Shown here: piece after piece, positions 9,405-52,279 of the stretch
How the letters are laid out: every line of letters starts with the position of its first letter
How positions within the stretch are numbered: the first letter of the stretch is position 1
NCBI RefSeq assembly: GCF_040581405.1
Contig: NZ_CP137157.1
Coordinates: 624,001-688,000 of the forward strand
Length of the DNA stretch: 64,000 nt
Reading direction: 5' to 3'
Source of the DNA: Komagataeibacter sucrofermentans DSM 15973
GTDB lineage: Bacteria > Pseudomonadota > Alphaproteobacteria > Acetobacterales > Acetobacteraceae
Notes under the pieces: generated by a model
Told to the model about the DNA's origin: nothing
What the model saw: the letters and a program-made list of their open reading frames with translations, nothing else
Database searches by the model: none
Translations under genes and position numbers: made by a program

Positions 9405-9479
9405 AAAAGTTTTTGGCGACGTTTTTCAAAAAGCTTCGAAAGACGTCGCCTTTAAAAAAGGCGATACCCAAAAACTTTT
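9405..9479. repeat. Intergenic three-armed palindrome, copy 1
   Basis: Outer inverted repeat AAAAGTTTTTGG (9405-9416) and CCCAAAAACTTTT (9467-9479). Inside, GCGACG and CGTCGC pair, enclosing a TTTTTCAAAAAGCTTC segment, followed by a short GCCTTTAAAAAAGGC hairpin. It is the most diverged of the full copies but keeps the outer stem perfectly. It lies between the convergent HAD phosphatase and yqgE genes. The reverse strand after the outer stem gives a T-rich tract, so it may serve as a bidirectional terminator (inference). Relatives lie at 12684, 41304 and 52198, partial ones at 13119 and 33825. Confidence 0.75.
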
Positions 9480-9623
9480 CTTCTGTAAAACAAGTCCGGA
9501 TGGATCGCGTGTTTCACTGTCCCATCGATCAGGATACGCGCGCCAGGGTCTGGCGTGATTGCATGCAGTTTGAAAGATTCTGCCAAGGCGGCCTGCACGT
9601 GTGGCAGCCGGTCCTGACTGACG

Positions 9624-10208
9624 TCAGGCGTGGCCCGCCGCCCCGGTAAACCACGCCGGGTCAATGCGCACGCTGGCCAGCGCCTGCCGCCACTTGGCGT
9701 TATGGTCGGGGCCGAACACGATGGCCTCGGTGGCGGGGGCGGCAACCCAGGCATTGTGGTGCAGCATCTCGTCTTCCAGCTGGCCTGCCTCCCAGCTGGC
9801 ATGGCCCATGGCCAGCATGGCGTGGGCCGGGCCGTTGCCATCGGCAATGTCACGCAGCACGTCAAGGCTGGCGGTCAGCGTCGTGCTGTCATCGACCGGC
9901 AGGCTGCCATCGCCGCTCCAGTCCGATGTATGCAGCACGAAGCCGCGCCCGTTATCCATCGGGCCGCCCGCGCACAGATTGATGCGGCGGCGGGGCGGCA
10001 CGGGCGCAATGCCAAGCTGTTCAAGCACATCATCAAGTACGGGTTGCGACAGCCTGCGGTTGACGACCAGCCCCATTGCGCCATCCTCGGGCGTATGGGC
10101 GCATAGATAGATGACACTCCGCGCGAAGGCGGGGTCGGTCAGGGCAGGGGTGGCCACCAGCAGGTGACCGGTCAGGCTACGGCCTGGAGATGTCGCGAAG
10201 GAAGCCAT
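9624..10208 (-). CDS. YqgE/AlgH family protein (UPF0301)
   Basis: About 194 aa, the full length of the family. Conserved blocks: LTGHLLVATPALTDPAFARSVIYLCAHTPEDGAMGLVVNR at the N-terminus, then LCAGGPMDNGRGFVLHTSDW, AMLAMGHASWEAGQLEDEMLHHNAWVA and FGPDHNAKWRQAL. Predicted cytoplasmic. The family is named after AlgH of Pseudomonas, but its molecular function is not settled. An ATG 12 codons upstream (10244) is possible; the internal one at 10208 aligns better with the family's MAS...LTGHLL beginning. The divergent SDR gene starts 130 bp away. Confidence 0.9.
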   Translation of the reverse strand: MASFATSPGRSLTGHLLVATPALTDPAFARSVIYLCAHTPEDGAMGLVVNRRLSQPVLDDVLEQLGIAPVPPRRRINLCAGGPMDNGRGFVLHTSDWSGDGSLPVDDSTTLTASLDVLRDIADGNGPAHAMLAMGHASWEAGQLEDEMLHHNAWVAAPATEAIVFGPDHNAKWRQALASVRIDPAWFTGAAGHA

Positions 10209-10337
10209 ACACCACCATAGAACCGGATTTGCCCTCTTTTGCAACCATTTCAGCTTCGGGTTGTATGGTTGTTAGCCCCCATGACGGGAGGCGACGGATA
10301 TGCAAGGCTGACCACCGACACAGCAGGAGAAAAGACC

Positions 10338-11096
10338 ATGAAGCAGATTGCACTGGTAACGGGGGCCACGGCCGGATTCGGCAAGGCAATCGCCACGCGG
10401 CTCGTGCGTGATGGGTATCGTGTCATTGCCACCGGCCGCAGGCGCGAACGCCTTGATGCGCTGGCGGCCGAACTCGGGCCGGACCTGCTGGCCTTCGAGC
10501 TGGACATGACCGATGCCGCAGCCATTGCCGCCCTGCCGGGCAGCCTGCCCGAGGGCTGGCGCGATGTGGATGTGCTGGTCAATAACGCGGGTCTCGCCCT
10601 GGGCATGGAAAAGGCGCAGGAGGCGGACGTGGCCAACTGGCAGACCATGATCGCCACCAACGTGACCGGCATGGCCGAACTGACGCGCGTGCTGCTGCCT
10701 GGCATGGTGGCGCGCGACCGCGGGCATGTCGTGACGCTGGGCAGCACGGCGGGCATCTATCCCTATACCGGCGGCAATGTGTATGGCGCGACCAAGGCGT
10801 TCGTGCGCCAGTTCACCCGCAACCTGCGCTGCGACCTGCTGGGCCATAATGTGCGCGTGACCAATATCGAGCCGGGCCTGTGTGGCGGCAGCGAGTTCAG
10901 CACCGTGCGCCTGCGCGACCCGGCCAGGGCGGCGGCGGTGTATGAAGGGACCAAGCCCCTGCTGCCCGAGGATATTGCCGAGACCCTGTCCTGGATCATT
11001 GCGCTGCCGCGTCATGTGAATATCAACGAGGTGGAGATGATGCCGACCTGTCAGGCGGCTGGTGGCCTCGCGGTGGCGCGGGGCATGAAGGATTGA
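10338..11096 (+). CDS. SDR family NAD(P)-dependent oxidoreductase (YdfG-like)
   Basis: 252 aa classical short-chain dehydrogenase. Cofactor motif TGATAGFGKAIA at the N-terminus, Arg residues after the second strand (ATGRRRERL) that favour NADP, VNNAG motif, Ser of the TLGSTAG segment and catalytic YGATK (Tyr and Lys). The C-terminal block RVTNIEPGLCGGSEFSTVR and the NINEVEMMPTCQ end are typical of the YdfG subgroup, which reduces 3-hydroxy acids such as L-allo-threonine or malonic semialdehyde. The start is set by the GGAGAAAAG Shine-Dalgarno just upstream; the longer open frame from 10239 lacks homologous character. The ppk2 start lies at its stop codon. Confidence 0.9.
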   Translation: MKQIALVTGATAGFGKAIATRLVRDGYRVIATGRRRERLDALAAELGPDLLAFELDMTDAAAIAALPGSLPEGWRDVDVLVNNAGLALGMEKAQEADVANWQTMIATNVTGMAELTRVLLPGMVARDRGHVVTLGSTAGIYPYTGGNVYGATKAFVRQFTRNLRCDLLGHNVRVTNIEPGLCGGSEFSTVRLRDPARAAAVYEGTKPLLPEDIAETLSWIIALPRHVNINEVEMMPTCQAAGGLAVARGMKD

Positions 11097-11098
11097 GT

Positions 11099-12025
11099 AT
11101 GGCCCGCAAGAAAACGACCACAAACACGCTCGCGCGGCGTTTCAGCGTGCATAATGGCAAGGGGTTCTCCCTTGCCGACTGCCCGACCCGGGCAGCGGAG
11201 GCCTGCGGGCTGGACAAGAAAACCGGCAAGCAGCTGCTCAGGGAGCGCATCCGTCACCTCTCGCAACTGCAGGCCCTGCTATACGCCAACAACACATGGT
11301 CGGTGCTGGTCGTGCTGCAGGCCCTTGATGCGGGCGGCAAGGATGGCGTGATCAAGCATGTCATGTCGGGCATCAACCCGCAGGGGGTCAGTGTCTCGTC
11401 ATTCAAGCAGCCCGGCCCGGTCGAGCTGGCGCATGGTTATCTGTGGCGCGAGCACATGGTGGCGCCTGCTGCTGGCCGCATCGGCATCTTCAACCGCAGC
11501 CATTATGAGGAAGTGCTCGTCACCCGCGTGCACCCCGAACTGCTCGAGCACGAATGCCTGCCGCTGAGCCTGCGCCGCAGGCCCACCTTCTGGAAGGACC
11601 GTTACGAGGATATCAGCAGTTTCGAGCGCTACATGGCCCGGCAGGGCACGATCGTGCTGAAGTTCTTCCTGCATCTTTCCAAGGAGGAGCAGCGCCTGCG
11701 CTTTTTGAAGCGCATCAGGCACCGCGCCAAGAACTGGAAGTTCTCACCTGCCGATATTCATGAGCGTCAGTACTGGGATGACTACCAGAACGCCTATGAG
11801 GAAGCGATCCGTCACACGGCCCACCCCGATGCACCGTGGTTTGTCGTGCCCGCCGACCAGAAATGGTTCGAGCGCCTGGTCGTGATCGAGGCGATCATCG
11901 ACGCGCTGGAGAAGCTGCACCTGAAAATGCCCGCCATGGACCCCGCCATGGAGGCGGATATGGAAAAGGCCCGCAGGCAGCTTGAGGCGGAAGCCCCCCG
12001 GCCCGCGCATAACCCCGTTCATTGA
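11099..12025 (+). CDS. ppk2: Polyphosphate kinase 2 family protein
   Basis: 308 aa single-domain PPK2, which transfers phosphate between polyphosphate and nucleotides. Walker A-like LQALDAGGKDGVIKHVMSGINPQG, the following FKQPGPVELAHGYLWR, a Walker B-like region GRIGIFNRSHYEEVLVTRVHP, and the lid LRRRPTFWKDRYEDISSFE with KFFLHLSKEEQRLRFLKRI are all present. The domain layout fits the PPK2-related subgroup that phosphorylates AMP or ADP; direction and nucleotide preference cannot be read here. A TTG at 11093 overlapping the SDR stop is an alternative start. Gene order SDR-ppk2 suggests co-transcription without a clear functional link. Confidence 0.92.
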   Translation: MARKKTTTNTLARRFSVHNGKGFSLADCPTRAAEACGLDKKTGKQLLRERIRHLSQLQALLYANNTWSVLVVLQALDAGGKDGVIKHVMSGINPQGVSVSSFKQPGPVELAHGYLWREHMVAPAAGRIGIFNRSHYEEVLVTRVHPELLEHECLPLSLRRRPTFWKDRYEDISSFERYMARQGTIVLKFFLHLSKEEQRLRFLKRIRHRAKNWKFSPADIHERQYWDDYQNAYEEAIRHTAHPDAPWFVVPADQKWFERLVVIEAIIDALEKLHLKMPAMDPAMEADMEKARRQLEAEAPRPAHNPVH

Positions 12026-12044
12026 CGCCGCCGCCCGCGCACCG

Positions 12045-12064
12045 CAAAAGATTGTAATCTTTTG
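12045..12064. promoter_or_regulatory. Perfect 9-bp inverted repeat upstream of the DUF3465 gene
   Basis: CAAAAGATT (12045-12053) and its exact reverse complement AATCTTTTG (12056-12064) separated by GT. It sits between ppk2 and the DUF3465 gene, right before that gene's GAGGGAGA Shine-Dalgarno. It could be an operator for a dimeric regulator or a weak ppk2 terminator; the sequence alone does not decide. Confidence 0.4.
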
Positions 12065-12082
12065 AAGAGGGAGAACATTCAG

Positions 12083-12673
12083 ATGGCGGCAATGCGCTGG
12101 CAGCGATGCGTGATGACGGGGCTCGGGGCGGTCGTGGCACTGCAGATGGGGAGTATTGCGCCCGCCCATGCGCGGCACCACCACCACCGGCACGAAAGTG
12201 AATACACGCGTGATGAGACGCAGGACACGCAGGGCGCGCAAAGCGGCCGCGAGGGCGGCAGCTCACGCCCGCAGCCCATTGCCAGCCCCGTGCCCACGGC
12301 CTGCGATGACGGCAAATTCCTAGCCGATCTTCAGGCTGCGGAAGCCAGCAGCAGCGAAGCCCACCCCGACCGGGTCGAGCATGTGTGCGGGAAGGTCATC
12401 GCCGTTTCGGCGTCCAAGCGCACGCGCAGCGGCCTGCACGGGTATTTTTATGTTGACGTGGGGCATGGCGTGTCCATCCGCATCGTGTCGGATCTGGACC
12501 GGATGACAGCACCCACATGGCCTTGGGTGGCCAAGGACGACCAGGCCGATGTGCTGGGCCGCTATTATTATGATAATGCCCGCCGCCAGGGCATTGACTG
12601 GACCCATCATGGCACCGGGCGGAGCTGGCCGGTTGAGGGCTATGTCAGCGTCAACGGCACCCGTTACCAGTAA
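12083..12673 (+). CDS. Secreted DUF3465-type protein with His-rich N-terminus
   Basis: About 196 aa. Sec signal peptide (TGLGAVVALQMGSIAPAHA), then immediately a histidine cluster (RHHHHRHESE), a low-complexity polar linker, and a C-terminal domain matching DUF3465: HVCGKVIAVSASKRTRSGLHGYFYVDVGHG, an APTWPWV block, DVLGRYYYD and DWTHHGTGRSWPVEGYVSVNGTRYQ. The domain resembles an OB-like fold of unknown function found in periplasmic proteins. The start is set by GAGGGAGA ten bases upstream. The His run may bind metal (inference). It faces YnfA convergently across repeat copy 2. Confidence 0.8.
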   Translation: MAAMRWQRCVMTGLGAVVALQMGSIAPAHARHHHHRHESEYTRDETQDTQGAQSGREGGSSRPQPIASPVPTACDDGKFLADLQAAEASSSEAHPDRVEHVCGKVIAVSASKRTRSGLHGYFYVDVGHGVSIRIVSDLDRMTAPTWPWVAKDDQADVLGRYYYDNARRQGIDWTHHGTGRSWPVEGYVSVNGTRYQ

Positions 12674-12683
12674 TCACGTTGAT

Positions 12684-12764
12684 AAGAGTTTTTGGGGGCC
12701 GCCTTTTTTCAAAAAGGCGGCGTTCTTCTGAAGCGTTTTGAAAAATGCTTCTCCAGAAACTCTT
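12684..12764. repeat. Intergenic three-armed palindrome, copy 2
   Basis: Outer arms AAGAGTTTTTGG (12684-12695) and CCAGAAACTCTT (12753-12764). Inner hairpin 1 is GCCGCC TTTTTTCAAAAA GGCGGC (12699-12722); inner hairpin 2 is GAAGCGTTTTGAAAAATGCTTC (12730-12751), joined by TTCTTCT. Compared with the other copies the fourth base pair of the outer stem is changed on both sides (AAAAGT/ACTTTT to AAGAGT/ACTCTT), a compensatory change. Between convergent genes. Confidence 0.85.
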
Positions 12765-12765
12765 G

Positions 12766-13095
12766 TCAGGGATGGGCGCGTGGAGCGAACAGGATCAGCC
12801 CTGCACCCGCAAGGCAGATCGCGGCGCCCAGTATATCCCACCGATCAGGCGGCAGGCCTTCGACCAGCCAGGACCAGATCAGGCTGGCCACGATGTACAC
12901 GCCACCATAAATGGCATAGGCCCGCCCCGCGTTATCAGCAGGGCTGAAGGTCAGCAGCCACGCAAAAACCACCAGCGACAGGCAGCCCGGCACCAGCACG
13001 AACGGCGAGCGGCCAAGGCGCATCCAGGCCCAGAAACAGAAGCAGCCGCCAATCTCGGCAAAGGCTGCGGGAATGTAGATGGCGGCGGTGAGCAT
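12766..13095 (-). CDS. YnfA family small membrane protein (UPF0060)
   Basis: 109 aa with four predicted transmembrane helices and little else. The family signature is clear: [49 protein letters not shown] and [23 protein letters not shown]. The fold resembles small multidrug-resistance-type exporters, but the function of YnfA proteins is not established in general. An AGGAAG Shine-Dalgarno lies directly before the start. It lies between repeat copy 2 on its 3' side and the truncated repeat 3 on its 5' side. Confidence 0.9.
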
Positions 13096-13118
13096 GGTCT
13101 TCCTGTAGAAAAAAGATC

Positions 13119-13166
13119 AGAAGTTTTTAGTGAAGCTTTTTTCAAAAAAGCAGCGCTAAAAAAAAC
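13119..13166. repeat. Truncated palindrome, copy 3, joined to the clpA terminator
   Basis: AGAAGTTTTTAG followed by TGAAGCTTTTTTCAAAAAAGCAGC and CTAAAAAAAAC: one outer half, one inner hairpin (GCTTTTTTCAAAAAAGC) and a degenerate closing half. The other inner hairpin is missing. Its A tract forms the T tail of the adjoining clpA terminator on the minus strand. It is the only copy not between convergent genes: it lies 5' of ynfA and 3' of clpA. Confidence 0.6.
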
Positions 13167-13190
13167 AGGAGCCATTTCTGGCTCCTGTTC
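13157..13190 (-). terminator. Rho-independent terminator of clpA
   Basis: Read on the minus strand: AACAGGAGCCA, loop GAAA, TGGCTCCTGTT, then a run of T residues (the A tract at 13157-13164 on the plus strand). It lies 27 bp beyond the clpA stop. Confidence 0.85.
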
Positions 13191-13216
13191 TTGTTTTCAG
13201 GTTAAGCGGATTACGC

Positions 13217-15547: not shown

Positions 15548-15708
15548 GCCGAGACGCTCCTTTTCCAAGTGGGGCCACCAGAGCCCCGGAGATCATAACC
15601 GGTAAGCCAGGACAATCCTTGCCCTGTTGCGATGGAAATGCCAGCACAAAATGCCATGGAACGCGATCGGATCGCGACGGGGGCGTTAAGATGCGCTTGC
15701 TCGTGGGC

Positions 15709-16140
15709 TCAGTCCTTTTCGATCGTGCATTGCAGCGGGTGCTGGTTCTGGCGCGCGAGGTCCATCACCTGCGTTACCTTGGTTTCGGCAACCTCGTACG
15801 TAAAGACCCCGCACACGCCCACGCCACGTTTGTGAACGTGGAGCATGATGTCAGTCGCTTCCTCGCGGTTTTTCTGGAAAAAGCGCTCGAGCACATGCAC
15901 CACGAATTCCATGGGCGTGTAATCATCATTGAGCATCAGCACCTTGTACATCGCCGGCTTGCGGGTCTGTGGCCGGGTGCGGATGACCACGTCGATCATG
16001 CCGTCATCATTGCCCGGCGGCGAGTCCTGCCCGCCGTTACGGCGCGGGGGCGTATTGCCCCCATGCCCATATGGGCGCGGGCTGTCCGCGCAGGGTCGGG
16101 GCGCGGGGTGGGGCAGGGAAACTTGAGCAATAGAAGACAT
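15709..16140 (-). CDS. clpS: ATP-dependent Clp protease adapter ClpS (with N-terminal extension)
   Basis: Adapter that delivers proteins with destabilising N-terminal residues to ClpA. The core is clear: [25 protein letters not shown] with the N-degron pocket [10 protein letters not shown], then [32 protein letters not shown]. With this start the protein is 143 aa, some 40 longer than usual, because of a Pro/Gly-rich segment ([19 protein letters not shown]) before the core. The shorter alternative starts at the ATG ending at 15999 ([11 protein letters not shown]) and gives about 96 aa. Neither has a strong Shine-Dalgarno. Position directly upstream of clpA is the conserved arrangement. Confidence 0.93.
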
Positions 16141-16399
16141 GACAGGTACCATATTGGAACTTTGCCGCCGGTTGAAAGGGGCGAGCGCCGGGGGGCAGGG
16201 ATTTTTTTGCATGTGCCCTGATCCGCTGCCGCCCGCGTTTATGGAATGGCAAGGATATAAATACGCTCTGGACGAATAGAAAACCTTTCTTTTAGAATGG
16301 TTGCAGCCAAGCAACCCGTGAATGGATGGAGGGGTGCCGGGTAACCCCGTGCGCCCGAAGCCGTATGATGATGATTGCACGCGCAGGTTTCGCCATCCC
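16141..16399. other. Divergent clpS/D,D-carboxypeptidase intergenic region
   Basis: About 260 bp with an AT-rich middle (16245-16300) that presumably carries the two outward promoters. A small inverted repeat GGTTGC-AGCCAA-GCAACC sits at 16299-16316. No convincing sigma-70 or heat-shock promoter pair was identified by eye. Confidence 0.35.
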
Positions 16400-17521: not shown

Positions 17522-17658
17522 CAGCACGCGTCGGGCAGGGTATAGAAGGCACGATTATCCATCCGGCGCGGCTGGCAGGCGGGTCAGGCGTGTTCCTGTT
17601 GTCCCTCTCATGACTGCGGGCGGGTGGTCATGCACAGATGACAGGAAAGGTTAGCGGC

Positions 17659-18465: not shown

Positions 18466-18530
18466 TACGCTGCCCCCCGCCGCCGCGCGCGGGGGATAAG
18501 GATACCGACGACACCCGAGAGGAAACGCCC

Positions 18531-20365: not shown

Positions 20366-20461
20366 CGGGAGATCGGTTGTAGACGGATACCTTGCTAACC
20401 TGGTCAGATCCGGAAGGAAGCAGCCATAGTGAGTTTCGTCCGGGTTATGGCCGGTCTCTCA
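20366..20461 (+). ncRNA. ffs: Signal recognition particle RNA, small bacterial (4.5S) type
   Basis: The universally conserved domain IV tetraloop region GGTCAGATCCGGAAGGAAGCAGCC lies at 20402-20425 (split here as GGTCAG, GGAAGGAAGCAGCC). The 5' end GGGAGATCGG (20367-20376) pairs with the 3' end CCGGTCTCTC (20451-20460) with only G-U wobbles, closing a hairpin of about 95 nt without an Alu domain. Location directly upstream of dnaX is the usual alphaproteobacterial arrangement. Ends are estimated from the closing stem. Confidence 0.95.
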
Positions 20462-20531
20462 CCTGAAACACGTTTCTGTGCCGCCATCGCGCCGCGTACG
20501 TCATGGCCACTTCTCCAGCCCGGATGCATCA

Positions 20532-27515: not shown

Positions 27516-29213
27516 ATGGCTTCAGCCACAACACAGCCCGTCGAGAACTTTGCCGATCTCCTCGAGGAAACCCTCGGTCGCGATTCCGCGTTTGACGGTT
27601 CCGTCGTCACCGGTCGCGTCGTTCGCCTGACGGATGAATACGCCATCGTCGATGTCGGCCTGAAAAGCGAAGGGCGCGTTTCCCTCAAGGAATTCGGCCC
27701 GCCGGGCGTTACCCCCGATGTCAAGCCGGGTGATGTCATCGAACTGTTCGTCGAGCGGTACGAAGATCGTGACGGGTCCATCGTCCTGTCGCGCGAGAAG
27801 GCCCGCCGCGAGGAAGCCTGGTCGAACCTTGAAAAGGCGTTCGAAGGCAACCAGCGCGTCAACGGCACCATCTATGGCCGCGTCAAGGGTGGCTTCACCG
27901 TCGACCTCGGCGGCGCGATGGCGTTCCTGCCCGGCTCGCAGGTCGATATCCGCCCCGTGCGCGATGTGACCCCGCTGATGGGCGTGCCCCAGCCGTTCCA
28001 GATCCTGAAGATGGACCGCGCACGCGGCAACATCGTCGTGTCGCGTCGCGCCGTGCTCGAAGAGACCCGTGCGGAGCAGCGCAGCGAGCTGATCCAGGGC
28101 CTGAAGGAAGGTATGATCCTCGATGGCGTGGTCAAGAACATCACCGATTACGGTGCGTTCGTTGATCTTGGCGGCGTCGATGGCCTGCTGCATGTGACCG
28201 ATATCGCATGGAAGCGCATCAACCACCCGTCCGAGGCGCTGCAGATCGGCCAGCCGGTCCGCGTGCAGGTCATCCGCTTCAACCCCGACACGCAGCGTAT
28301 CTCGCTGGGCATGAAGCAGCTTGAGGCTGACCCGTGGGAGAACGTGGCGATCAAGTACCCGCCGGGTGCCCGCTACACCGGTCGCGTCACGAACATCACC
28401 GACTACGGTGCGTTCGTCGAGCTCGAGCCGGGCGTCGAAGGCCTGGTGCACGTGTCCGAGATGTCCTGGACGAAGAAGAACGTCCATCCGGGCAAGATCG
28501 TCGCCACTTCTCAGGAAGTCGATGTGATGGTTCTGGATGTGGACAGCGCGAAGCGCCGCATCTCGCTGGGCCTGAAGCAGGTGCAGCGCAACCCGTGGGA
28601 GCAGTTCGCCGAGGAACACAAGGTTGGTTCCGTGGTGGAAGGCGAGATCCGCAACATCACCGAGTTCGGCCTGTTCATCGGCCTGTCCGCCGACATCGAT
28701 GGCATGGTTCACATGTCCGACCTGTCGTGGGACGAGCCGGGCGAAGTCGCCATGAGCCACTACGAGAAGGGCCAGGTCGTAAAGGCCAAGGTTCTGGACG
28801 TGGACGTGGAGAAAGAGCGTATCTCGCTGGGCATCAAGCAGCTGCATGAAGACCCCGCCGCTGACACGCTGAGCAAGGTGCAGAAGGGTGCGGTCGTGAC
28901 CTGCATCGTTACCGCGGTGCAGGCGAACGGCATCGAGGTGAAGGTTGACGACGTTCTGACCGGCTTCATCCGCCGTGCGGAACTGGCCCGTGACAAGGCC
29001 GACCAGCGCCCCGAGCGCTTCGCCGTTGGCGAACGCGTCGATGCGAAGGTCGTGTCGGTTGACCGCGCAGCCCGCAAGCTGGCCCTGACCATCCGCGGCC
29101 GTGAGGTCGAGGAAGACAAGCAGGCGATCTCCGACTACGGTTCTTCCGATAGCGGTGCTTCGCTGGGTGACATTCTGGGTGCCGCGATCCGTCGCCGTAA
29201 CGCCGAGAGCTGA
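27516..29213 (+). CDS. rpsA: 30S ribosomal protein S1
   Basis: 565 aa with six S1/OB-type RNA-binding repeats. Repeats are seen as GRVVRLTDEYAIVDVGLKSEGRV, GRVKGGFTVDLGGAMAFLPGSQVD, GVVKNITDYGAFVDLGGVDGLLHVTD, GRVTNITDYGAFVELEPGVEGLVHVSE, GEIRNITEFGLFIGLSADIDGMVHMSD and a diverged last one (CIVTAVQANGIEVKVDDVLTGFI). Each is followed by RISLG-type linkers (RISLGMKQLEADPWE, RISLGLKQVQRNPWE). It recruits mRNA to the 30S subunit. The coding sequence shows the strongest codon bias of the window, as expected for a highly expressed gene. Confidence 0.97.
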   Translation: MASATTQPVENFADLLEETLGRDSAFDGSVVTGRVVRLTDEYAIVDVGLKSEGRVSLKEFGPPGVTPDVKPGDVIELFVERYEDRDGSIVLSREKARREEAWSNLEKAFEGNQRVNGTIYGRVKGGFTVDLGGAMAFLPGSQVDIRPVRDVTPLMGVPQPFQILKMDRARGNIVVSRRAVLEETRAEQRSELIQGLKEGMILDGVVKNITDYGAFVDLGGVDGLLHVTDIAWKRINHPSEALQIGQPVRVQVIRFNPDTQRISLGMKQLEADPWENVAIKYPPGARYTGRVTNITDYGAFVELEPGVEGLVHVSEMSWTKKNVHPGKIVATSQEVDVMVLDVDSAKRRISLGLKQVQRNPWEQFAEEHKVGSVVEGEIRNITEFGLFIGLSADIDGMVHMSDLSWDEPGEVAMSHYEKGQVVKAKVLDVDVEKERISLGIKQLHEDPAADTLSKVQKGAVVTCIVTAVQANGIEVKVDDVLTGFIRRAELARDKADQRPERFAVGERVDAKVVSVDRAARKLALTIRGREVEEDKQAISDYGSSDSGASLGDILGAAIRRRNAES

Positions 29214-29263
29214 TCCGAGCCACAGGTTCTGGCCCGCGCATGCGTGGGCTGGAGCCGGGCATG

Positions 29264-29298
29264 AAAAAGGGCGGTGCAGAAATGCACCGCCCTTTTTT
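29264..29298. terminator. Bidirectional terminator between rpsA and the M16 peptidase gene
   Basis: AAAAAGGGCGGTGCA-GAAA-TGCACCGCCCTTTTTTT: an 11-bp GC-rich stem flanked by an A tract on one side and a T tract on the other, so it can stop transcription from both convergent genes. It lies 50 bp behind rpsA. Confidence 0.92.
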
Positions 29299-29327
29299 TA
29301 TGTCGAGAGAGAAGAAAAAAAGTTTTT

Positions 29328-32018
29328 TTACCGTGTTGCAGGCGGTCCCTTAATGATCTCGGCCAGATCGTCAGGACGGATCCATTTGCGGAAGGCATCG
29401 CGGATCGCCTCGGCACTCAGGGTGTAATAGGCCTGGGCTGCAATATCGTTCTGGTTGAGCGGCAGGCCAAGATCGCTGAAATGCAGGTAACCTGCCGCGA
29501 TGGTGTCGAGGCTGGCTGATTGCAGCGCCAGGCCGCGCAGCATGCCCGCGCGCGCCATGGCCAGTTCATCCGCGCTGACAGGCTGGGCCTGCATGGCGGT
29601 GATGTCCTGTATCGCAGCACGCCGTGCGGCATCCACCTTCTGCGGGTCAGCGCCGAACGAAATGCTGTAGGCCGCGCGCTGGCGCTTCCATGTCAGGTGG
29701 CTGCGCACGGTATAGACATAGCCGGTGCGCACCCGCAGGTCGCGATACAGACGGGATGAAAAGCCCGAGCCCAGAATCTCGTTGCCCAGGTTGAGCGCGA
29801 AATGCTCCGGGTTGCTTGCCGTCAGCCCAAGGCTTTCGGGCAGGGAAACCGTGGCCTGCGTGCTTGATGGGTCGGGCACGCGGGTCACGCTGGCCCTGCT
29901 GTCGGGGCGCGGCGGCAGGTCAACTGCGGGCGTGGGGCCGGTGGCCCGCCATGCGCCAAAGGTGCGGGCAATGGCCTTGTAGGCGGCATCGGGCGTGATG
30001 TCGCCGGTAATGACGATGGTGGTCAGGTCAGGCCGATAGGCGGCGGCGTAAAAGGCACGGCAGTCCGCTACATTCAGCTTCATGATGCCTGCAGGCTCGG
30101 CCTGCCGCAGCGACGGATCGCCCTTGGGCGAGACAGCGGCCTGCATTGCACGGCCAAACAGATAGTCAGGCGAATGCAGCAGCCCGGACAGCGAGGCCGC
30201 CGCATTGGCCTGCACCACCTTGAAAGCCGCTTCGGGCAGGGCGGGGTGCAGTTCATTTTCCGCCAGCAGGTCAAGTCCGCGCCCGAAATCGGGGGTGAGC
30301 ACGCTCAGGCTGAAATCGGAGCCCGCGCTTTCCGTTGCGGCAATATCATCAAGCGCCTTTTGCAAGCCGATCCGGTCATGCGTGGTGCTGCCGTAGCGGA
30401 ACATCTCATCGGTGATGTCGGCAATGCCTTCCTTGCCCTTTGGTTCCTGCATGTCCTCATTCTGGCGGATGGTGCCGTACAGGCTGACCGTATGGCTGAC
30501 ATTGGCCGGGCGCACGATCAGGCGCAGCCCGTTGGGCAATGTAAAGGCGGCAGGCTGGGCGGAGGGCGTGGGGGCGGTCACGCCCATCAGGCTGTCATTG
30601 GCCCATTGCGGCAGGCTGACGGGGTGATCGGGTGTCGCGGCAAAGGATTCCGAGCCGCCAAAACCCTTGCCCTCAACCGGATGGCCACCATCACGCGGGG
30701 TAAGGATGGCGGTAATGGATTGCTGCGGGTCAAGCACCTGCCGGGCCAGGCGGTTGACATCCTCCGGGGTTACGGCGGCAAAGGCGGTGGCTTCATCATC
30801 GGGCGATTGCAGGCCCATGATGGCCTGTGCCTCCGACCAGCTTTCCGCAAGACCCGCAATGCTGTTGGCGGCAAAACCGAGCTGGGCCAGTTCCTTGCGT
30901 TTCGCGGCGTCTACCAGATCGGCGGGCACGCCGTTTTCACGCAGGGTTTTCAGTATTTCCTGCATGCGGGCCTGCAGGGGGGCTGCCTCGCCGCCCTTGG
31001 GGAAGGCAGCAATGGCAATGCCGATGCCTGCATCCGCCTTGGTGACGAAATCGAAGCTCGACAGCAGCGCGCGGCCCTGCGGCACGAGTTCGTACAATGC
31101 TCCGCGCTGGCTGCACAGTACATCGGCCAGAATGCGGGCGGCGGCATAATCATGGCTGTTCTGGCCGGGCATGCGGCTGGCAATGGCCACCAGCCCCACC
31201 GGGTAATCGGTGGGGAAGTGCAGTGTCTGGGCATGGACCGGGCCGGGGTGGACCTGCGGGCGGGCAGGCAGCGCGCGGGCGGGAATGGCGCTAAAGGCCG
31301 CGCGCACCTGCGCCATGGCGCGGGCGGGGTCAACATCACCGGCAATGACCAGAATGGCGTTGTTGGGCGCGTACCAGTCGCGGTAGAACCGGCGCAGCAG
31401 GGCGGTATCAGTCTTGTCAAAGGATGGCCTGCTGCCCAGCGCATCATGCTCATAGGGCGTGCCCGCGAACAGGATGGATTGCAGCCGGGCCAGATACACA
31501 TAGCCGGGGCTCGACAGATCGCGTGAGACTTCCTGCTCGATCGCGCCGCGCTCATGCGCCCAGTCATCAGCCGCCAGTGTCAGGCCCTTCATGCGCAGGG
31601 CTTCGATATGCAGCAGCACGTCAAGGTTTTCCGCCGGGGCGGTATAAAAGAACTGCGTTACGTTTTCCGTCGTGTCGGCATTGTAGTTGCCGCCCAGCCG
31701 CGCCCCGATGGCGGCAAGCTGGTCGCGGTCCAGCCCCTCGCTGCCACGGAACATCATGTGCTCGAGCGCATGCGCCGTGCCGGGAAAGCCCGCCGGTGCG
31801 GCGGCCGAACCGGCCAGATAGTTGATCTCGGTGCTCACAACCGGGGCCAGCCGGTCGGGCACGATCACGACCCGCAGCCCGTTGGGCAGGGTGGCCTGCA
31901 CCGGCATGTCGGGCTGGGGCGCGGCACTTGCGGCCCGCGCGGGGGGCAGCGTGGCAAGGGCGCTCCCACATAACAGGAGGGAGAGACATAATGTCTTGGA
32001 AAACAGGCGTGCTATCAT
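29328..32018 (-). CDS. M16 family zinc metallopeptidase, double-domain, exported
   Basis: 896 aa. N-terminal signal peptide (TLCLSLLLCGSALATLPPARA). The first M16 domain carries the inverted zinc motif HALEH (His83, Glu86, His87) in FPGTAHALEHMMFRGSEG, followed by GGNYNADTTENVTQFFYTAP and a distal Glu in ERGAIEQEVSRD. The second, inactive M16 domain is in the C-terminal half (ITGDITPDAAYKAIARTFG, ILGSGFSSRLYRDLRVRTGYVYTVRS). The layout matches the pitrilysin-like bacterial peptidases fused as one chain, acting in the periplasm on peptides. Divergent from the serine hydrolase gene, with 74 bp between them. Confidence 0.93.
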   Translation of the reverse strand: MIARLFSKTLCLSLLLCGSALATLPPARAASAAPQPDMPVQATLPNGLRVVIVPDRLAPVVSTEINYLAGSAAAPAGFPGTAHALEHMMFRGSEGLDRDQLAAIGARLGGNYNADTTENVTQFFYTAPAENLDVLLHIEALRMKGLTLAADDWAHERGAIEQEVSRDLSSPGYVYLARLQSILFAGTPYEHDALGSRPSFDKTDTALLRRFYRDWYAPNNAILVIAGDVDPARAMAQVRAAFSAIPARALPARPQVHPGPVHAQTLHFPTDYPVGLVAIASRMPGQNSHDYAAARILADVLCSQRGALYELVPQGRALLSSFDFVTKADAGIGIAIAAFPKGGEAAPLQARMQEILKTLRENGVPADLVDAAKRKELAQLGFAANSIAGLAESWSEAQAIMGLQSPDDEATAFAAVTPEDVNRLARQVLDPQQSITAILTPRDGGHPVEGKGFGGSESFAATPDHPVSLPQWANDSLMGVTAPTPSAQPAAFTLPNGLRLIVRPANVSHTVSLYGTIRQNEDMQEPKGKEGIADITDEMFRYGSTTHDRIGLQKALDDIAATESAGSDFSLSVLTPDFGRGLDLLAENELHPALPEAAFKVVQANAAASLSGLLHSPDYLFGRAMQAAVSPKGDPSLRQAEPAGIMKLNVADCRAFYAAAYRPDLTTIVITGDITPDAAYKAIARTFGAWRATGPTPAVDLPPRPDSRASVTRVPDPSSTQATVSLPESLGLTASNPEHFALNLGNEILGSGFSSRLYRDLRVRTGYVYTVRSHLTWKRQRAAYSISFGADPQKVDAARRAAIQDITAMQAQPVSADELAMARAGMLRGLALQSASLDTIAAGYLHFSDLGLPLNQNDIAAQAYYTLSAEAIRDAFRKWIRPDDLAEIIKGPPATR

Positions 32019-33286: not shown

Positions 33287-33805
33287 ATGTCATTTGGTGA
33301 ACGCGTCAATAAGTTAGACGCCTGGCTGCTGGAGCGGGTTTTTCAGCCTGTTGCCGATGCACTACCCGAGCGCCTGACGGCGATGGACGTGGGCATGAGC
33401 TTTCTGATCGGCGCGGTCCTGCTTTCCGCTGCCGCCATTTCTGCCCTGCTGCTGCTTGATGGCATGACGATAAACAACCTCATCACCAATGTGCTGGGCT
33501 GGTTTTTCGAGGTTATTTTCTACATGGGCATTCACCGCATGCGGGCCATGGTGCGGCCGGGTTACCTGAACCCTTTTCGCGTCATGCTGGTAGGCATGCG
33601 GCCCATTTCCATTCCGTTTGCGGCCTATGCGCTGTATCAGGCCGTGACGGCGGATGCGGTGTATGAACTCGCGCTGTGGTTCAATTCGCTCTCGCAGCTT
33701 GTGTTCGTGGCCGGGCTTTACCTGATCTCGTGCAATGTGCCGCCGCCGGGGCATCGCGCGCGGCAGACATCCTTCGGGCGTGGCCCGCTGCCCAACGAAC
33801 TCTGA
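33287..33805 (+). CDS. Membrane protein of unknown function
   Basis: 172 aa. A soluble N-terminal segment of about 35 residues (MSFGERVNKLDAWLLERVFQP) is followed by about four hydrophobic helices (MSFLIGAVLLSAAAISALLLLD, NLITNVLGWFFEVIFYMGIH, an IPFAAYALYQAV stretch and SLSQLVFVAGLYLIS), with a short polar C-terminus (PPPGHRARQTSFGRG). I do not recognise a family. It lies 24 bp behind the serine hydrolase and probably shares its transcript. Confidence 0.75.
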   Translation: MSFGERVNKLDAWLLERVFQPVADALPERLTAMDVGMSFLIGAVLLSAAAISALLLLDGMTINNLITNVLGWFFEVIFYMGIHRMRAMVRPGYLNPFRVMLVGMRPISIPFAAYALYQAVTADAVYELALWFNSLSQLVFVAGLYLISCNVPPPGHRARQTSFGRGPLPNEL

Positions 33806-33824
33806 GCAGAAACCCAATAAGAAT

Positions 33825-33848
33825 GCCGCCTTTTTGAAAAAAGGCGGC
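33825..33848. repeat. Partial palindrome, copy 4 (single hairpin)
   Basis: GCCGCCTTTTTGAAAAAAGGCGGC is the first inner hairpin of the intergenic palindrome family without its second hairpin. The flanks (AGAAACCCAATAAGAAT and ACCCGGAAACGTCTGTC) hold only remnants of the outer arms. It lies between the convergent membrane-protein and SdhAF4 genes and could still act as a terminator. Confidence 0.7.
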
Positions 33849-33890
33849 ACCCGGAAACGTCTGTCATTTAAAATTTCCGAAGCGTCGGGA

Positions 33891-41303: not shown

Positions 41304-41384
41304 AGAAGTTTTTGGGGTGCCGCCTTTTTTCAAAAAGGCGGCGTTCTTCTGAAGTTTTTAAAAAAAGCTTCACCAAAAACTTTT
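41304..41384. repeat. Intergenic three-armed palindrome, copy 5
   Basis: Outer arms AGAAGTTTTTGG (41304-41315) and CCAAAAACTTTTG (41373-41385). Inner hairpin 1 GCCGCCTTTTTTCAAAAAGGCGGC (41319-41342), spacer GTTCTTCT, inner hairpin 2 GAAGTTTTTAAAAAAAGCTTC (41351-41371). Same orientation as copy 2. Between the convergent EcsC and small membrane protein genes. Confidence 0.87.
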
Positions 41385-43356: not shown

Positions 43357-43406
43357 CAGGGCCACGCATGCGGGCTTCCGTCTGCGCAGATGAAAGGGAA
43401 TATGTG

Positions 43407-44087: not shown

Positions 44088-44120
44088 CCGCCAGCCCGTT
44101 TTTTTCAAGGATTGCATGAC

Positions 44121-44717: not shown

Positions 44718-44842
44718 CGCTCCGGTCCGCTTTATGGCATGAAAAGGGCACCCCCTGCCCGTAAATCGCCATGTCCATCTGGTCTAGACGGTTCTGGCGG
44801 GGCTGTGTGCCCCACCGGAACAGGACAATCAGGAAACAGGTC

Positions 44843-45151
44843 ATGAAGAACATGGGGCGTATTGCAGCGGGGCTGACCCTTCTTGCCGCAATGGCAGTGG
44901 CGGCGCCGCAGGCCCAGGCCCATGGGCGTGGCGCGGGCGATGCGTTTGCAGGCGGGCTGGTGGGTGGCCTGGTGGGCGGTATCGTTGGCGGTGCCATGGT
45001 TGATGCCTTTGGCCCGCCGCCGCCCCCTCCGCCGCCGGTCTATTACCGCCCGCCGCCGCCGCCCCCACCGGTGGCCTATTATGCGCCGCCGCCTCCGCCC
45101 CCGCCGGGCGCGTTCTATGGCCCGTATGGCCCGCCGCGCCCGTATTACTGA
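44843..45151 (+). CDS. Glycine-zipper, proline-rich exported protein
   Basis: 102 aa. Signal peptide (RIAAGLTLLAAMAVAAPQAQA), a short Gly-zipper segment (FAGGLVGGLVGGIVGGAMVDAFG) likely to insert into a membrane, and a C-terminal half made of Pro runs separated by Tyr-rich units (VYYRP, VAYYAP, GAFYGPYGPPRPYY). Such proteins are seen in acetic acid bacteria as outer-membrane or envelope structural candidates; the function is unknown. AGGAAACAGG precedes the ATG. Its last 7 bases overlap the 3' end of the convergent peroxiredoxin gene. Confidence 0.75.
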   Translation: MKNMGRIAAGLTLLAAMAVAAPQAQAHGRGAGDAFAGGLVGGLVGGIVGGAMVDAFGPPPPPPPPVYYRPPPPPPPVAYYAPPPPPPPGAFYGPYGPPRPYY

Positions 45152-45654: not shown

Positions 45655-45738
45655 GACCTGCCTTGCTGCTCTGGGTGCGGGAGCCACGTCACGCGCTGGC
45701 CCCCGGCGGGGTTGAAACGGGGGCGATCATGCAACGCT

Positions 45739-48700: not shown

Positions 48701-48786
48701 GCGGCACGTGGGTCGGCGGGTCGGGGCCATGTGCATCCCTGCCACGAGGCATGTGGCGCGGGCAGGGGCGGGGTTGGCTGATCCAT
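45739..48786 (-). CDS. glnE: Bifunctional glutamine synthetase adenylyltransferase/adenylyl-removing enzyme
   Basis: 1015 aa. It adds and removes AMP on glutamine synthetase according to nitrogen status, under PII control. Two nucleotidyltransferase domains: GSGFVVLAMGKLGARELNYSSDIDLIILYD in the N-terminal half (deadenylylase) and VAVVALGKVGSREMMPGSDLDLMVVFD in the C-terminal half (adenylylase), each with the GS/D-x-D metal motif and a following RLRPSG/RLRPDPS block, plus a linker rich in helices. GlnE is usually about 950-1000 aa. Divergent from the AsmA-like gene with 65 bp between starts. Confidence 0.95.
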   Translation of the reverse strand: MDQPTPPLPAPHASWQGCTWPRPADPRAARILRENLSDACARAGLPDLAATPGIMPMLDALGGNSPYLSDLALRDTEAFATLVHEGAETCVRRILTALDTVPPATPRAEIMAELREAKRQAALAIALADIGGAWSLEQVTLALSELAENALNTALRHLLLHAHETGRLRLRYPETPCRGSGFVVLAMGKLGARELNYSSDIDLIILYDPDRHPGNGELRHTFVRMTSDLVTLMEARDANGYVFRMDLRLRPDPSATPAAVSFPAAIQYYESMGRTWERAAMTKARPVAGDITAGRRFLKTIHPFIWRRHLDFAVIDDLHDMKARIDRHRNAGHANLDSLRAEDISNPDTALRWLLGQNVKLGQGGIREVEFVAQALQLVWGGRRPELRDPTTLGALRRLRRAGLLAREQSAILARNYRILRQAEHRLQMRLDHQTHSLPDTEDGFARFATFMNMGPPDELPSSLLAVMQRSRRIFDQQFAESGREDITIAPEDADAADRLRAHGFPAADINDALAILNRWEGNRLRALRSDRARKLLRRLLPGLLAEMGRRQQPLAVLRRFDALLERQWAGVQFLSLLERNPALIHRIVTVLDCAPFLADHLAETPSALDGLLDMDGGPGAVSTVTALARRQVAAAQSAEQVLPVLRGLVCGEEFRLSVARLEHRMSEDRAARARTAMAETVMRGLLRLVSAEHRQRHGIVPGGAVAVVALGKVGSREMMPGSDLDLMVVFDHPEEAGESVVSASDGPRARPLSAGTYYVRLAHAFVAALTAPGREGPLYEVDMRLRPSGSKGPVAVSLSAFRRYHAESAWTWERMALTRARVVAGPPGLAGPLNAAIATALDHAPDTAQARARVLHDVRHMRERLARERPASSPWDIKRRRGGLMDVEFVAQGLQLVARSPACRSQSTRTALLRLARLGEISMADARLLRRADLFWRALQGLIRIICGHDVPDTIAPASLEILTGEVGAADAAGLLRRMDRMANDVTGVFDRLIPLTDAPDGAHDGHDGGFPAA

Positions 48787-48851
48787 GGAGAAATGTCCGG
48801 CAAGAGACTGGGAATGAACGCTTATTGGCGCGGGAGCGTAGCGTGGACGGC

Positions 48852-51800
48852 ATGACGCAGGCAGGTCAAGCCTCGCCGCCGCCCGGTGGCACGCCGCAAC
48901 GCCCGAGCCGCGTGCGCCGCGCGGTACTGGCCGCGGGCCGCGTGGTGGTGTGGCTGGTGCTGCTGTGCATTACGCTGCCTGCGGTGCTGCTGCTGGTGCT
49001 GACCCTACGCCTTTCGGCAGGGCCGCTTGAGGTCACGCCGGTGGTGCGCCTGTTCATGCCGCTGCCCGTGGCCCATGGGCGCAGGCATGCGGATATTATT
49101 GGCAGCCTGTCGGCGGCGCATGTGCGGCTGGGCTGGAATGCGATGCATGAGGGGCTGCGCGCGCCGTTCGTGATCTGGGTGGAGGATGTGCGCATCGCGC
49201 GGCGCGATGGCGCCGTGGCCGATACGCTGCGCCGGGGGCGCATTACGCTCGATAGCCCGGCGCTGGCGCATGGCGTTGTCCGTATTCTTGAACTGTCGGT
49301 CTCGCACGGGCGGTTGCAGCTTGCGCGTAGCCGCGAGGGCAAGATCGGCCTCGACCTGGGGCCGGATACTCCCTACCCGCCGCATGAGAAGGAAGAACCC
49401 TCGCCGCTGGACATGAGCGCGCTGCGCAGGGCCATGGTGTCGGACACGCATGTGCAGTTCACCGATCGCATGACCGGGCGCAACTGGCGGCTGGGCGAGG
49501 CGGATGCCCGGCTGAAGGTGGTGAACGATACCGGGCAGAAAGGGGTGGAAGGCGATATCCGCCTCGGGCTGGAAGGCAATGGCGAGCGGCTGGTGCTGCA
49601 CGGCCAAGGCATCCATGCCGGCCCCCGCCATGTTGACTGGACCCTAGTGCTCGACCCCATCAGCCCGGCGGCCTTTGCGCCGGGGCAGAAGCAGGTCGCC
49701 CCGCTTGACCTGCCGGTGGGCGGGCGGTTGCAGGTTGCTTTCCGTGATGGGGGGCAGGATCAGGGCTTCCTCATGCCGCGTGATTTCACGCTGCACCTCG
49801 ATGCGGGCAACGGGCAGGTCACCACGCGCAAGGCCGGGCAGTTTTTGGTGGGCGAGGGGGTGGCCGACCTTGTCGGTTCACTGGGGCCGGGACCGGCCAA
49901 CGCGCCGTTTGATGGCCCGCTGAAGGTGGCGCTGCGCAACCTTGAACTGCATCTGCGCGCACCGGGCCATGCCGATGATGATGGCAGCGGCCCCACGCTG
50001 AACGCCACGGCCGCACTCAGCGCCGCATCACTGATGAAGCCTGCCAACGTCCAGCTTGACGTAGGCGCGCATGCGCGGGCGCTGGAGTTTGAAACGCTGG
50101 GTGCGTTCTGGCCGCCCGCCGCCATGAAGGGCGCGCGCCGGTGGGTGACCGAAAACATACCGCATGGCCATGTGCGGCAGTTGCAGGTCAATATGGGCCT
50201 GACCAGCCACAAGGGCTGGGGGGGGCTGGATCTCGCCTCGCTTGGCGGCACGATCGATGCCGACGCGATGGAACTGCACTGGCTCAGCCCCATTCCGCCG
50301 CTGCACGACATGGATGCCCACCTGACCTTTGATGGTCCCGACGAGATCATGATCCATTTCGGCCATGCGTACCAGCTTGTTGACCTTGCGGGGCGGCATG
50401 TCGATGCCACCGGCACCGGGCGGATCGAGGTCGGCCCCGGCTCCATGCGCATTACCGGCCTGAACGAGAAGGTGCAGGTAGGCGACATCAACGTGACCCT
50501 GCTGGGCAATGCGCGCGACGTGCTGGCGCTGCTGGCCGAGCCCCGGCTCAATGTACTCTCGCGCCACCCCATGTCGTTCACGCACCCGTCGGGGCGGGCC
50601 AATGTGTCGCTGCACATAGCCCTGCCGCTCGATGCGCATGTGCGCCTCGACCAGATCGACCTGCGCAGCCATACCGATCTTGCGCAGGTGCATCTGGGCA
50701 ATGTGGTGGTGGGGCGCCCGCTTGATAATGGCATCCTGGGCATCGACGCCACCACCAACGGCCTGCTGCTGCAGGGCACGGGCGTGCTGGCGGGCATTCC
50801 CTCGAGCGTGATCTACACCATGGACTTCCGCAGCGGGCCGATGGTCCATGCGGTGGAAAGCGCCAGCCTGCAGGGCCATGTCACGCCGGAGGGGGTGAAG
50901 CGGGCCGGATTTGAGATGGGCGAGCATTTCTCGGGCAGCGCCCTGCTTGATGTGGATTACGACCGCTACGTGGGCGGCAAGGCGCAGGTGAATATCGACC
51001 TCGATCTTGATCGCGCGGCGCTGGCCATACCCATCTGGTCCAAGAAGGTGGGGCAGGAGGCCAATGCCTCGGTCGAGCTTGACCTCGACCATGGGCAGAT
51101 TGCAGGCATCGAGAACATGCGCGCCGTAGGCCCCGACCTGCTGATTGATGGCCATGCCGAGACCGCAGGCGGGGTGACGCGCCGGCTGGTGCTGCGTGGC
51201 TTCCGTATCGGGCGCTCGATGGGCAATGCCTCGGTGCTGCTGCCGCAGCGCGAGAACGACCCCATTGGCGTGAACGTGGCGGCCAGGGTGCTTGACCTCT
51301 CGCCGCTGGTCTCGTTCCAGACCGCGCCCGACAGCACGGCGGCGACCAAGGTGGCCGCCCACCAGGGCGATAGCGGTGGCTACCACATGCCTGAAATGGC
51401 GACCGGACGGGTCAACGGCCCGCCGGGCCGCCGGTGGGATCTGAACGTGGATGCCCGCACCCTGTATTACGGCCCCACCGATACGCTGACCAACGTGCAT
51501 AGCCACCTTGAAACCAATGGCGTGCGCCTGACCCGTGGCGTGCTGACGGTGGAAGGCCCGGTGCCCGCGCAGGCGCACCTGACCCAGCAGGGCAATGTCC
51601 GCCTGCTTGACGTGCATGTGGCAAGCCTGGGCGACCTGCTGCACAACATGAAGGTGACTGACGAGATGCAGGGTGGCGTGACCGACATCACCGGCCAGTT
51701 CGATGACAGTTCGGCCACCGCCCCCTTCTCGGGCACGGTGCATATGGGGCCGTTCAAGCTGCGCAACGTGCCTGCCGTGGTCAGGCTGGCCAATAATGCC

Positions 51801-52187
51801 TCGATCTATGGCTGGCTGCGCGCGCCGCATGCGCCGGGCATGCAGATCGAGCAGCTGAACGCGCCGGTGAAGATGGATGAAGGCGACATCCATATCTCCG
51901 ACGGGCTGGTCAGCAATGCCTCCCTCGGGGCCACGGTGTCAGGCGAGGTGAACCTGGAGAAGAAGACCCTTAACCTTGATGGCACCATCATCCCCGCCTT
52001 TGCGGTCAATGCGGCACCCGGCCACCTGCCGGGCCTGCTGGGCTGGCTGTTCAGCCCGGAGAAGAACGGGGGCGTGCTCTCGGCCACCTATCAGGTGACC
52101 GGGCCGATGGGCAACCCGGCAGTGCATGTGAACCCCTATGCCATGCTGCTGCCCGGCTTCCTGCGCAACCTGATGCATGTGCATTGA
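48852..52187 (+). CDS. AsmA-like/DUF3971 large envelope protein (YhdP-type)
   Basis: 1111 aa. One N-terminal membrane helix (VVVWLVLLCITLPAVLLLVLTLRL) followed by a very long periplasmic beta-rich region. A DUF3971-like middle and a C-terminal AsmA-like domain (NVPAVVRLANNASIYGWLRAP, MDEGDIHISDGLVSNASLGATVSGEVNLEKKTLNLDGTIIPAF, LPGLLGWLFSPEKNGGVLSATYQVTGPMGNPAVHVNPYAML) match the YhdP/TamB-like bridge proteins thought to move phospholipids between the membranes. Upstream in-frame codons overlap glnE and are ignored. Confidence 0.9.
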   Translation: MTQAGQASPPPGGTPQRPSRVRRAVLAAGRVVVWLVLLCITLPAVLLLVLTLRLSAGPLEVTPVVRLFMPLPVAHGRRHADIIGSLSAAHVRLGWNAMHEGLRAPFVIWVEDVRIARRDGAVADTLRRGRITLDSPALAHGVVRILELSVSHGRLQLARSREGKIGLDLGPDTPYPPHEKEEPSPLDMSALRRAMVSDTHVQFTDRMTGRNWRLGEADARLKVVNDTGQKGVEGDIRLGLEGNGERLVLHGQGIHAGPRHVDWTLVLDPISPAAFAPGQKQVAPLDLPVGGRLQVAFRDGGQDQGFLMPRDFTLHLDAGNGQVTTRKAGQFLVGEGVADLVGSLGPGPANAPFDGPLKVALRNLELHLRAPGHADDDGSGPTLNATAALSAASLMKPANVQLDVGAHARALEFETLGAFWPPAAMKGARRWVTENIPHGHVRQLQVNMGLTSHKGWGGLDLASLGGTIDADAMELHWLSPIPPLHDMDAHLTFDGPDEIMIHFGHAYQLVDLAGRHVDATGTGRIEVGPGSMRITGLNEKVQVGDINVTLLGNARDVLALLAEPRLNVLSRHPMSFTHPSGRANVSLHIALPLDAHVRLDQIDLRSHTDLAQVHLGNVVVGRPLDNGILGIDATTNGLLLQGTGVLAGIPSSVIYTMDFRSGPMVHAVESASLQGHVTPEGVKRAGFEMGEHFSGSALLDVDYDRYVGGKAQVNIDLDLDRAALAIPIWSKKVGQEANASVELDLDHGQIAGIENMRAVGPDLLIDGHAETAGGVTRRLVLRGFRIGRSMGNASVLLPQRENDPIGVNVAARVLDLSPLVSFQTAPDSTAATKVAAHQGDSGGYHMPEMATGRVNGPPGRRWDLNVDARTLYYGPTDTLTNVHSHLETNGVRLTRGVLTVEGPVPAQAHLTQQGNVRLLDVHVASLGDLLHNMKVTDEMQGGVTDITGQFDDSSATAPFSGTVHMGPFKLRNVPAVVRLANNASIYGWLRAPHAPGMQIEQLNAPVKMDEGDIHISDGLVSNASLGATVSGEVNLEKKTLNLDGTIIPAFAVNAAPGHLPGLLGWLFSPEKNGGVLSATYQVTGPMGNPAVHVNPYAMLLPGFLRNLMHVH

Positions 52188-52197
52188 GAACATAAGG

Positions 52198-52279
52198 AAA
52201 AGTTTTTGGTGAAGCTTTTTTCAAAAAGCTTCAGAAGAAAGCCACCTTTTTGAAAAAAGGCGGCGCCCAAAAACTTTTA
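52198..52279. repeat. Intergenic three-armed palindrome, copy 6 (inverted orientation)
   Basis: Outer arms AAAAGTTTTTGG (52198-52209) and CCCAAAAACTTTT (52266-52278). Here the GAAGCTTTTTTCAAAAAGCTTC hairpin (52211-52232) comes first, then the AGAAGAAAG spacer and CCACCTTTTTGAAAAAAGGCGG (52243-52264): the reverse complement arrangement of copies 2 and 5. Between the convergent AsmA-like and MFS genes. Confidence 0.87.

Follow-up and report, generated by a model that had tools for sequence, protein, structure and literature searches.

The window analysed here, a stretch of 64,000 nucleotides from Komagataeibacter sucrofermentans DSM 15973 (contig NZ_CP137157.1, positions 624,001 to 688,000), carries a dispersed family of three-armed palindromes lying mostly between convergent genes, which raises the question of where these copies came from and what, if anything, they do at the ends of genes. 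Four full and two partial copies had been proposed from the sequence alone. All six were found at the proposed positions: the full copies score 74.7 to 106.7 bits with our covariance model (R1), and the partial ones 42.0 and 24.7 bits. Five convergent junctions hold a copy, as originally described; the total of convergent junctions is seven in our gene calls, where eight had been counted, and the copy at 13119 is the only one at a tandem junction. Genes were called with a purpose-written script, which missed a likely gene at 44841-45150. The copies, and the trace of a lost one, are as follows.

9405..9479, minus strand (GC arm first on that strand): full core, 74.7 bits, AT arm altered; convergent junction 9352/9624.
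12684..12764, plus strand: full core, 98.2 bits; convergent junction 12673/12766.
13119..13166, minus strand: partial core (outer arms and AT arm), 24.7 bits; tandem junction 13095/13217.
29290..29330, strand not applicable: lost copy, fused outer-arm letters; adjoins a conserved ordinary hairpin terminator.
33824..33849, minus strand: GC arm only, 42.0 bits (match 33761-33867; the hairpin alone 23.7 bits); convergent junction.
41304..41384, plus strand: full core, 96 bits; convergent junction 41300/41397.
52198..52278, minus strand: full core, 106.7 bits; convergent junction 52187/52289.

Read with the GC arm first, the consensus has an outer stem, AAAAGTTTTTGG/CCAAAAACTTTT, which encloses the GC arm (GCCGCC-T-run/A-run-GGCGGC), a pyrimidine-rich linker and the AT arm (GAAGC-T-run/A-run-GCTTC), and the whole three-armed core measures ∼83 bp. 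The outer arms form an inverted repeat of 12–17 bp, and the core is flanked by an A-run and a T-run. On both strands, the folding of the four full window copies beat all 200 shuffles (z −4.0 to −9.3). The exact paired outer stem occurs at 28 sites in the genome and at none for the reversed control; for the half stem, the numbers are 97 and 1. The genome-wide covariance search that the original prediction had proposed was performed with R1, built from 15 copies including the four full window copies, and gave at least 150 matches in the 3.44-Mb genome (E up to 0.01). Among 200 aligned copies, many stem pairs are altered on both sides (T-A replaces C-G at one GC-arm pair in 33 copies, and G-C replaces A-T in the outer stem in 13), and some of these changes represent inherited subfamilies rather than separate events. 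The element was said to belong to no named family, and it matches no Rfam family at the gathering score; in a lax search, the 52198 copy reached at best 25.5 bits, where the gathering score is 64. We recognised no description of the element among the open-licence papers listed. The only Rfam match in the window is a small bacterial SRP RNA gene (20368-20462; RF00169, 55.2 bits).

To score placement, contig C1 was sampled at even intervals in 60 stretches of 20 kb (1.2 Mb in total). They contain 153 convergent, 701 tandem and 145 divergent junctions. We observed the following. Among 66 copies of at least 40 bits, 34 are at convergent and 31 at tandem junctions, one is at the edge of a stretch, and none is at a divergent junction. 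Among 32 weaker matches (25–40 bits), two are at divergent junctions and none lies within a gene. Copies inside genes, named beforehand as evidence against a terminator role, were found neither in this sample (0/66) nor among 103 scorable exact copies from 105 named loci, of which 64 are convergent, 38 tandem and 1 divergent, with 13 more at edges (119 such loci were listed, and 14 from other taxa that have no inner arms were left out). A model-based count of 99 of the 105 loci gave a similar picture (72 convergent, 47 tandem, 2 divergent, 13 at edges, none inside genes). The copies are also close to the stop codons: in the K. sucrofermentans sample, 61 of the 100 stop codons that face a core are 0–20 nt away from it.

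The origin of the family became apparent from K. swingsii, where the likeness of aligned copies extends well past the core and stops at inverted repeats, GAGRCTGTTTGAAAA. These define a MITE of ∼162 bp with 3-bp TNA target duplications. With up to 4 mismatches allowed over the two ends together, 46 distinct copies carry both, 138–164 bp apart; the core is present in all of them, and 33 are flanked by identical TNA triplets. This count followed the fetching of 20 regions by the end pattern. In the 18 both-ended copies not fetched in this way, identical flanks are found in 10, all of them TNA, and in the remaining 28, for which the search pattern itself had TNA at one end, in 23; an earlier subset of 19 both-ended copies had 10 with identical triplets, again all TNA. 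One filled and empty pair was also found: K. xylinus NBRC 15237 (locus L021) has a 151-bp element, flanked by TAA and by CAA (altered at one base), at a site where K. xylinus CGMCC 21569 (L093) has none. End-pattern counts at 2 mismatches were dropped since the AT arm of the core matches the pattern too. This arm, GAAGCTTTTTGAAAA, differs from the MITE end at two positions and may be derived from a duplicated MITE end.

TNA followed by the end sequence occurs in 16 of 19 genomes of the genus, 57 times in K. swingsii G005 and 0–16 times in each of the other 18, which suggests a recent burst in G005. In K. sucrofermentans, the single intact copy lies on contig C2 between two TTA triplets. The end sequence (TNA included, one mismatch) occurs seven times in this genome, with two occurrences at this copy, two at one IS element and three beside damaged cores. 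End remnants (up to 4 mismatches) were found near 53 of 197 copies, compared with 5 of 197 for the reversed control, and near 39 of 176, compared with 4 of 176, when K. swingsii is excluded. They are clustered at 32 and 38–41 nt from the model match, and are present in Komagataeibacter, Acetobacter and Novacetimonas; in K. sucrofermentans itself, 7 of 65 copies have one (1 in the control). We are fairly confident that the element descended from a MITE, and the proposal that it is a non-autonomous element stands in this form, with terminal repeats and TNA target duplications.

A reversed history would start from the core, as an ancient terminator family of which one member was captured by IS-like ends, most chromosomal copies never having been MITEs. 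It would explain why end remnants are missing from the Gluconobacter (0/7) and the window (0/6) copies, and why the core is nearer to the stop codon than the ends would permit without a deletion. Late capture in one genus would not be expected, however, to leave remnants whose distances agree between Komagataeibacter, Acetobacter and Novacetimonas, and we regard this history as quite unlikely. We favour the order MITE first and bare core later; for the window and Gluconobacter copies, descent from the MITE would follow from the likeness of the core only.

Elements of the IS5/IS1031 group start with GAG and duplicate TNA. The ends and the TNA duplications point to mobilisation in trans by an IS5-type transposase, and IS1031-type elements are known in Komagataeibacter, as stated in an excerpt of PMC6559022. 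Like the MITEs of the IS5 family, the element is short and geneless, has inverted ends and TNA duplications and is present in many copies; it differs in that a three-armed core persists without the ends, adjoins stop codons and flips, and in that no exact parent IS was found. In the search for an autonomous parent none was found, the nearest full-length IS matching 13 of 15 end letters. This IS (in genome G015) has a DUF4096 transposase, and its flanking triplets are not identical. IS elements with a DUF4096 transposase and the ends GAGCCTGTTTGGAAA were found in the genus, and in K. sucrofermentans an IS with MITE-like ends and TAA on both sides has a second IS or transposase nested inside it (L196, 10192-11917). 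Locus L372, considered as the parent, is really a different, DUF4096 IS inserted in the AT arm of an element copy in K. swingsii (positions 1340-2320), and the same IS adjoins a half core in L364 of that genome; the palindrome may itself be an IS target.

The original prediction had also called the element REP-like. It resembles the REP/BIME and GTAG/CGTC palindromes in being dispersed and intergenic, with proposed roles in termination or mRNA stability (PMC3733652, in part). According to the same excerpt, the units of those palindromes measure 20–40 bp, and CGTC repeats are reported missing in Acetobacteraceae. A REP element moved by a RAYT (Y1) transposase would also be palindromic, intergenic and present in many copies. 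However, PF01797, the Y1 transposase, has no match in the K. sucrofermentans genome, although the same search was positive in 5 of 14 control genomes, and terminal repeats with TNA duplications are of the cut-and-paste type. In the RAYT sense, the REP-like description finds no support, and the probability left to it is close to negligible.

How does a MITE come to lie at the ends of genes? Two of the TNA triplets, TAA and TGA, are stop codons (TTA and TCA when read in reverse), so that an insertion at precisely such a codon can keep the gene intact. Intact copies abut a stop codon exactly in 11 of 35 cases with both neighbours called, against 5.6 expected from a simulation in which any TNA of the same gap was equally likely (P 0.005). 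Loss of harmful insertions could contribute to part of this excess. TAG beside old copies showed at most a slight depletion (5/76 and 8/106, compared with 118/1023 and 82/683 genes; p about 0.25 each).

At orthologous junctions, the element is frequently shared, and it is also lost or eroded. In the stretches fetched from genome G004, an orthologous junction was available for 21 of 85 K. sucrofermentans copies, and 19 of these have the element in both genomes; in the reverse direction, this holds for 24 of 27. The two partial copies of the window have fuller counterparts elsewhere, the 13119 core in G003 (K. xylinus CGMCC 21569) and G004, and the 33824 arm in G002, G003, G009 and K. xylinus NBRC 15237 (L072). 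At junction 41300 the element is intact only in the window genome, being shortened in G004, devoid of the GC arm in G003 and absent from G002, G009 and G013. At junction 29213/29328, on the other hand, all five relatives have the element (partial in G013) and the window genome has lost it. The copies of G004 and G003 at this junction are in opposite orientations, and in G002 and G009 the core is kept though the rest of the gap no longer aligns. Next to the lost copy, an ordinary GC-rich hairpin with a T-run (29250-29300) follows a gene for six S1 domains (27516-29213) and is kept in all six genomes compared. At another orthologous junction, L026 has a plain hairpin with a T-run where L090 has the element.

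The opposite orientations at junction 29213 are one case of a more general behaviour. Orientation was read from 300 full-length matches, some from loci that repeat each other, for which it was unambiguous (strand margin of at least 23 bits). Orthologous pairs were in the same orientation in 72 cases and inverted in 27; these pairs are not independent. After merging near-identical members, both orientations were seen between genomes in 12 of 37 convergent junction families and in none of 9 tandem families (Fisher p 0.09). At 90–99% flank identity, the number of edits was 9.2 for inverted pairs (n = 12) and 9.9 for pairs in the same orientation (n = 38), compared with 21.4 for paralogs within K. 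sucrofermentans and 17.1 for random pairs. Since inverted pairs are as similar as pairs in the same orientation, the flip concerns one and the same copy, which has not been replaced. The clearest flip is in Gluconobacter, where L057/L084 and L058/L076 have private core letters in common and the flanks are unchanged up to the 16-bp inverted repeat. Taken together, the alignments make it highly probable that the core flips in place. The inverted-repeat outer arms would permit an occasional inversion through recombination or template switching. The flips are evidence for short intergenic inversions in bacteria, which ordinary alignments would score as divergence. A similar event is described in part of PMC2903610 for the plastid trnH-psbA spacer, in which a segment of 25–27 bp flips between inverted repeats of at least 18 bp and the hairpin is thought to aid mRNA stability. 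That case concerns one plastid locus, whereas here a dispersed bacterial family is involved, whose core has two more hairpins.

The aforementioned data led us to the following history. A small non-autonomous MITE of acetic acid bacteria would insert; the surviving copies are intergenic, and nearly all have the end of one or two genes beside them; over time the MITE ends would decay and the core would remain near the stop codon. A transcript of the core, from either strand, would fold into the outer stem and two hairpins, and the core would act as a bidirectional terminator, a 3′-end stabiliser or both. The ends, duplications, single empty site, placement, erosion and flips can be read in the sequences themselves. 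A role as bidirectional terminator or stabiliser, to which we give modest preference, would fit the placement after stop codons, the two-way folding, the flips at convergent junctions and the survival of the core beyond the ends. T-runs stand at both outer edges of the core, the downstream one having no advantage at tandem junctions. The account as a whole, from MITE core and landing near stops to decay, flips and a terminator or stabiliser role, we consider reasonably probable.

The bidirectional terminator of the original prediction thus agrees with the placement of the copies; recent insertions share this placement, though, and neither of two strand-specific tests supported a terminator. 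Among the 46 both-ended copies, taken as recent, 18 are convergent, 16 tandem, 1 divergent and none inside genes (11 unscored). As recent insertions are distributed like the other copies, placement alone is no proof of function. Wobble pairs have no bias to the transcribed strand (96 vs 90). At tandem junctions, the T-run found downstream is less rich than the A-run found upstream (4.94 vs 5.32, p 0.008), against the expectation for a terminator. The loss of the copy at junction 29213 from the window genome, next to an ordinary terminator, also speaks against a function. A preference for the GC arm first at tandem junctions was slight (47/78, p 0.09). The similar placement of recent and old copies and the two strand tests would be consistent with the copies being functionless MITE debris, which lies after genes because copies landing in genes or promoters disappear and TNA is found at stop codons and in gaps, and the loss or erosion of copies at orthologous junctions would also be consistent with neutrality. 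Debris would not be expected, on the other hand, to have a core that outlives the ends (at least 150 cores and 3 near-exact ends beside damaged cores in K. sucrofermentans), many stem pairs altered on both sides, or cores that persist where the rest of the gap has lost its alignment (junction 29213 in G002 and G009). We therefore consider neutrality unlikely, though it carries some weight.

For a functional core, a more specific scenario can be put forward tentatively. The element may be a self-installing, invertible terminator: TNA targeting of stop codons would add a ready-made bidirectional transcript end with the gene unharmed, after which the core would be kept, the ends shed, and the core free to flip where genes converge, its orientation being held where one gene reads in. 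If the history above is true, many transcript ends in industrially used bacteria derive from one transposon family that is visible at every stage, from the fresh insertion with its target duplication to the bare core. A 100-bp bidirectional terminator region after GOX0028 of Gluconobacter oxydans, picked as lying between convergent genes, is efficient by RNA-seq and used in vectors, according to excerpts of PMC7055074, PMC9429829 and PMC8426231; by this description, it is the closest functional lead for the core. The cores are candidate bidirectional terminators for the engineering of Komagataeibacter and Gluconobacter, and the natural pairs of one copy in both orientations offer a direct test of terminator polarity.

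The copies are not evenly spread along the chromosome. By halves of the distance from the skew-inferred origin, 53 copies fall in the near and 13 in the far half, which have 74 and 79 convergent junctions (p 2e-5), and the 84 copies of at least 72 bits on C1 fall by fifths as 36, 22, 18, 5 and 3. The same gradient was observed in G004 C1 (64 of 143 matches listed) and G009 C3 (41 of 116 matches listed), whose origins were judged from ten stretches each. Such a concentration near the origin could indicate a binding site for a chromosome-organising protein that is excluded from the terminus region. A site of this kind would not, however, need to be placed tightly after stop codons or be absent from divergent junctions, and the gradient would also follow from a greater share of old core genes around the origin, which leaves this reading very improbable.

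The taxonomic spread of the family was sampled with the model and with exact patterns. With the model at E up to 1e-10, all 18 other Komagataeibacter genomes were positive, with 8 to at least 108 copies each, and none of 5 genomes from other genera of the family or of 16 from other families. The exact outer-stem pattern was found in 7 of 200 genomes of the family (K. sucrofermentans counted) and in 3 of 102 genera, one of which contributes only the G218 copy described below. Among the matches listed in a scan of named genomes, further taxa were Acetobacter, Gluconobacter, Novacetimonas, Gluconacetobacter entanii and an Acidocella MAG. The window aligns with K. xylinus contigs L043 and L072 at 92–93% identity, and with G003 at 95% over 5.2 kb. 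Outside the genus but within the family, a lone copy (G218:C1:442443-442493) encloses one long GC hairpin in the outer stem described above and is perhaps a simpler relative. The 52198 copy had no match in a phage collection, and phage carriage was rejected as an explanation. Among 72,556 plasmid records, the core was matched in 4 and the intact element in 6; L165 and L166 are plasmid copies with both MITE ends. In G015, two intact MITEs in the same orientation flank a frame resembling a c-type cytochrome (CxxCH motif by eye), the whole measuring ∼1.05 kb end to end (L325, 2045-3090).
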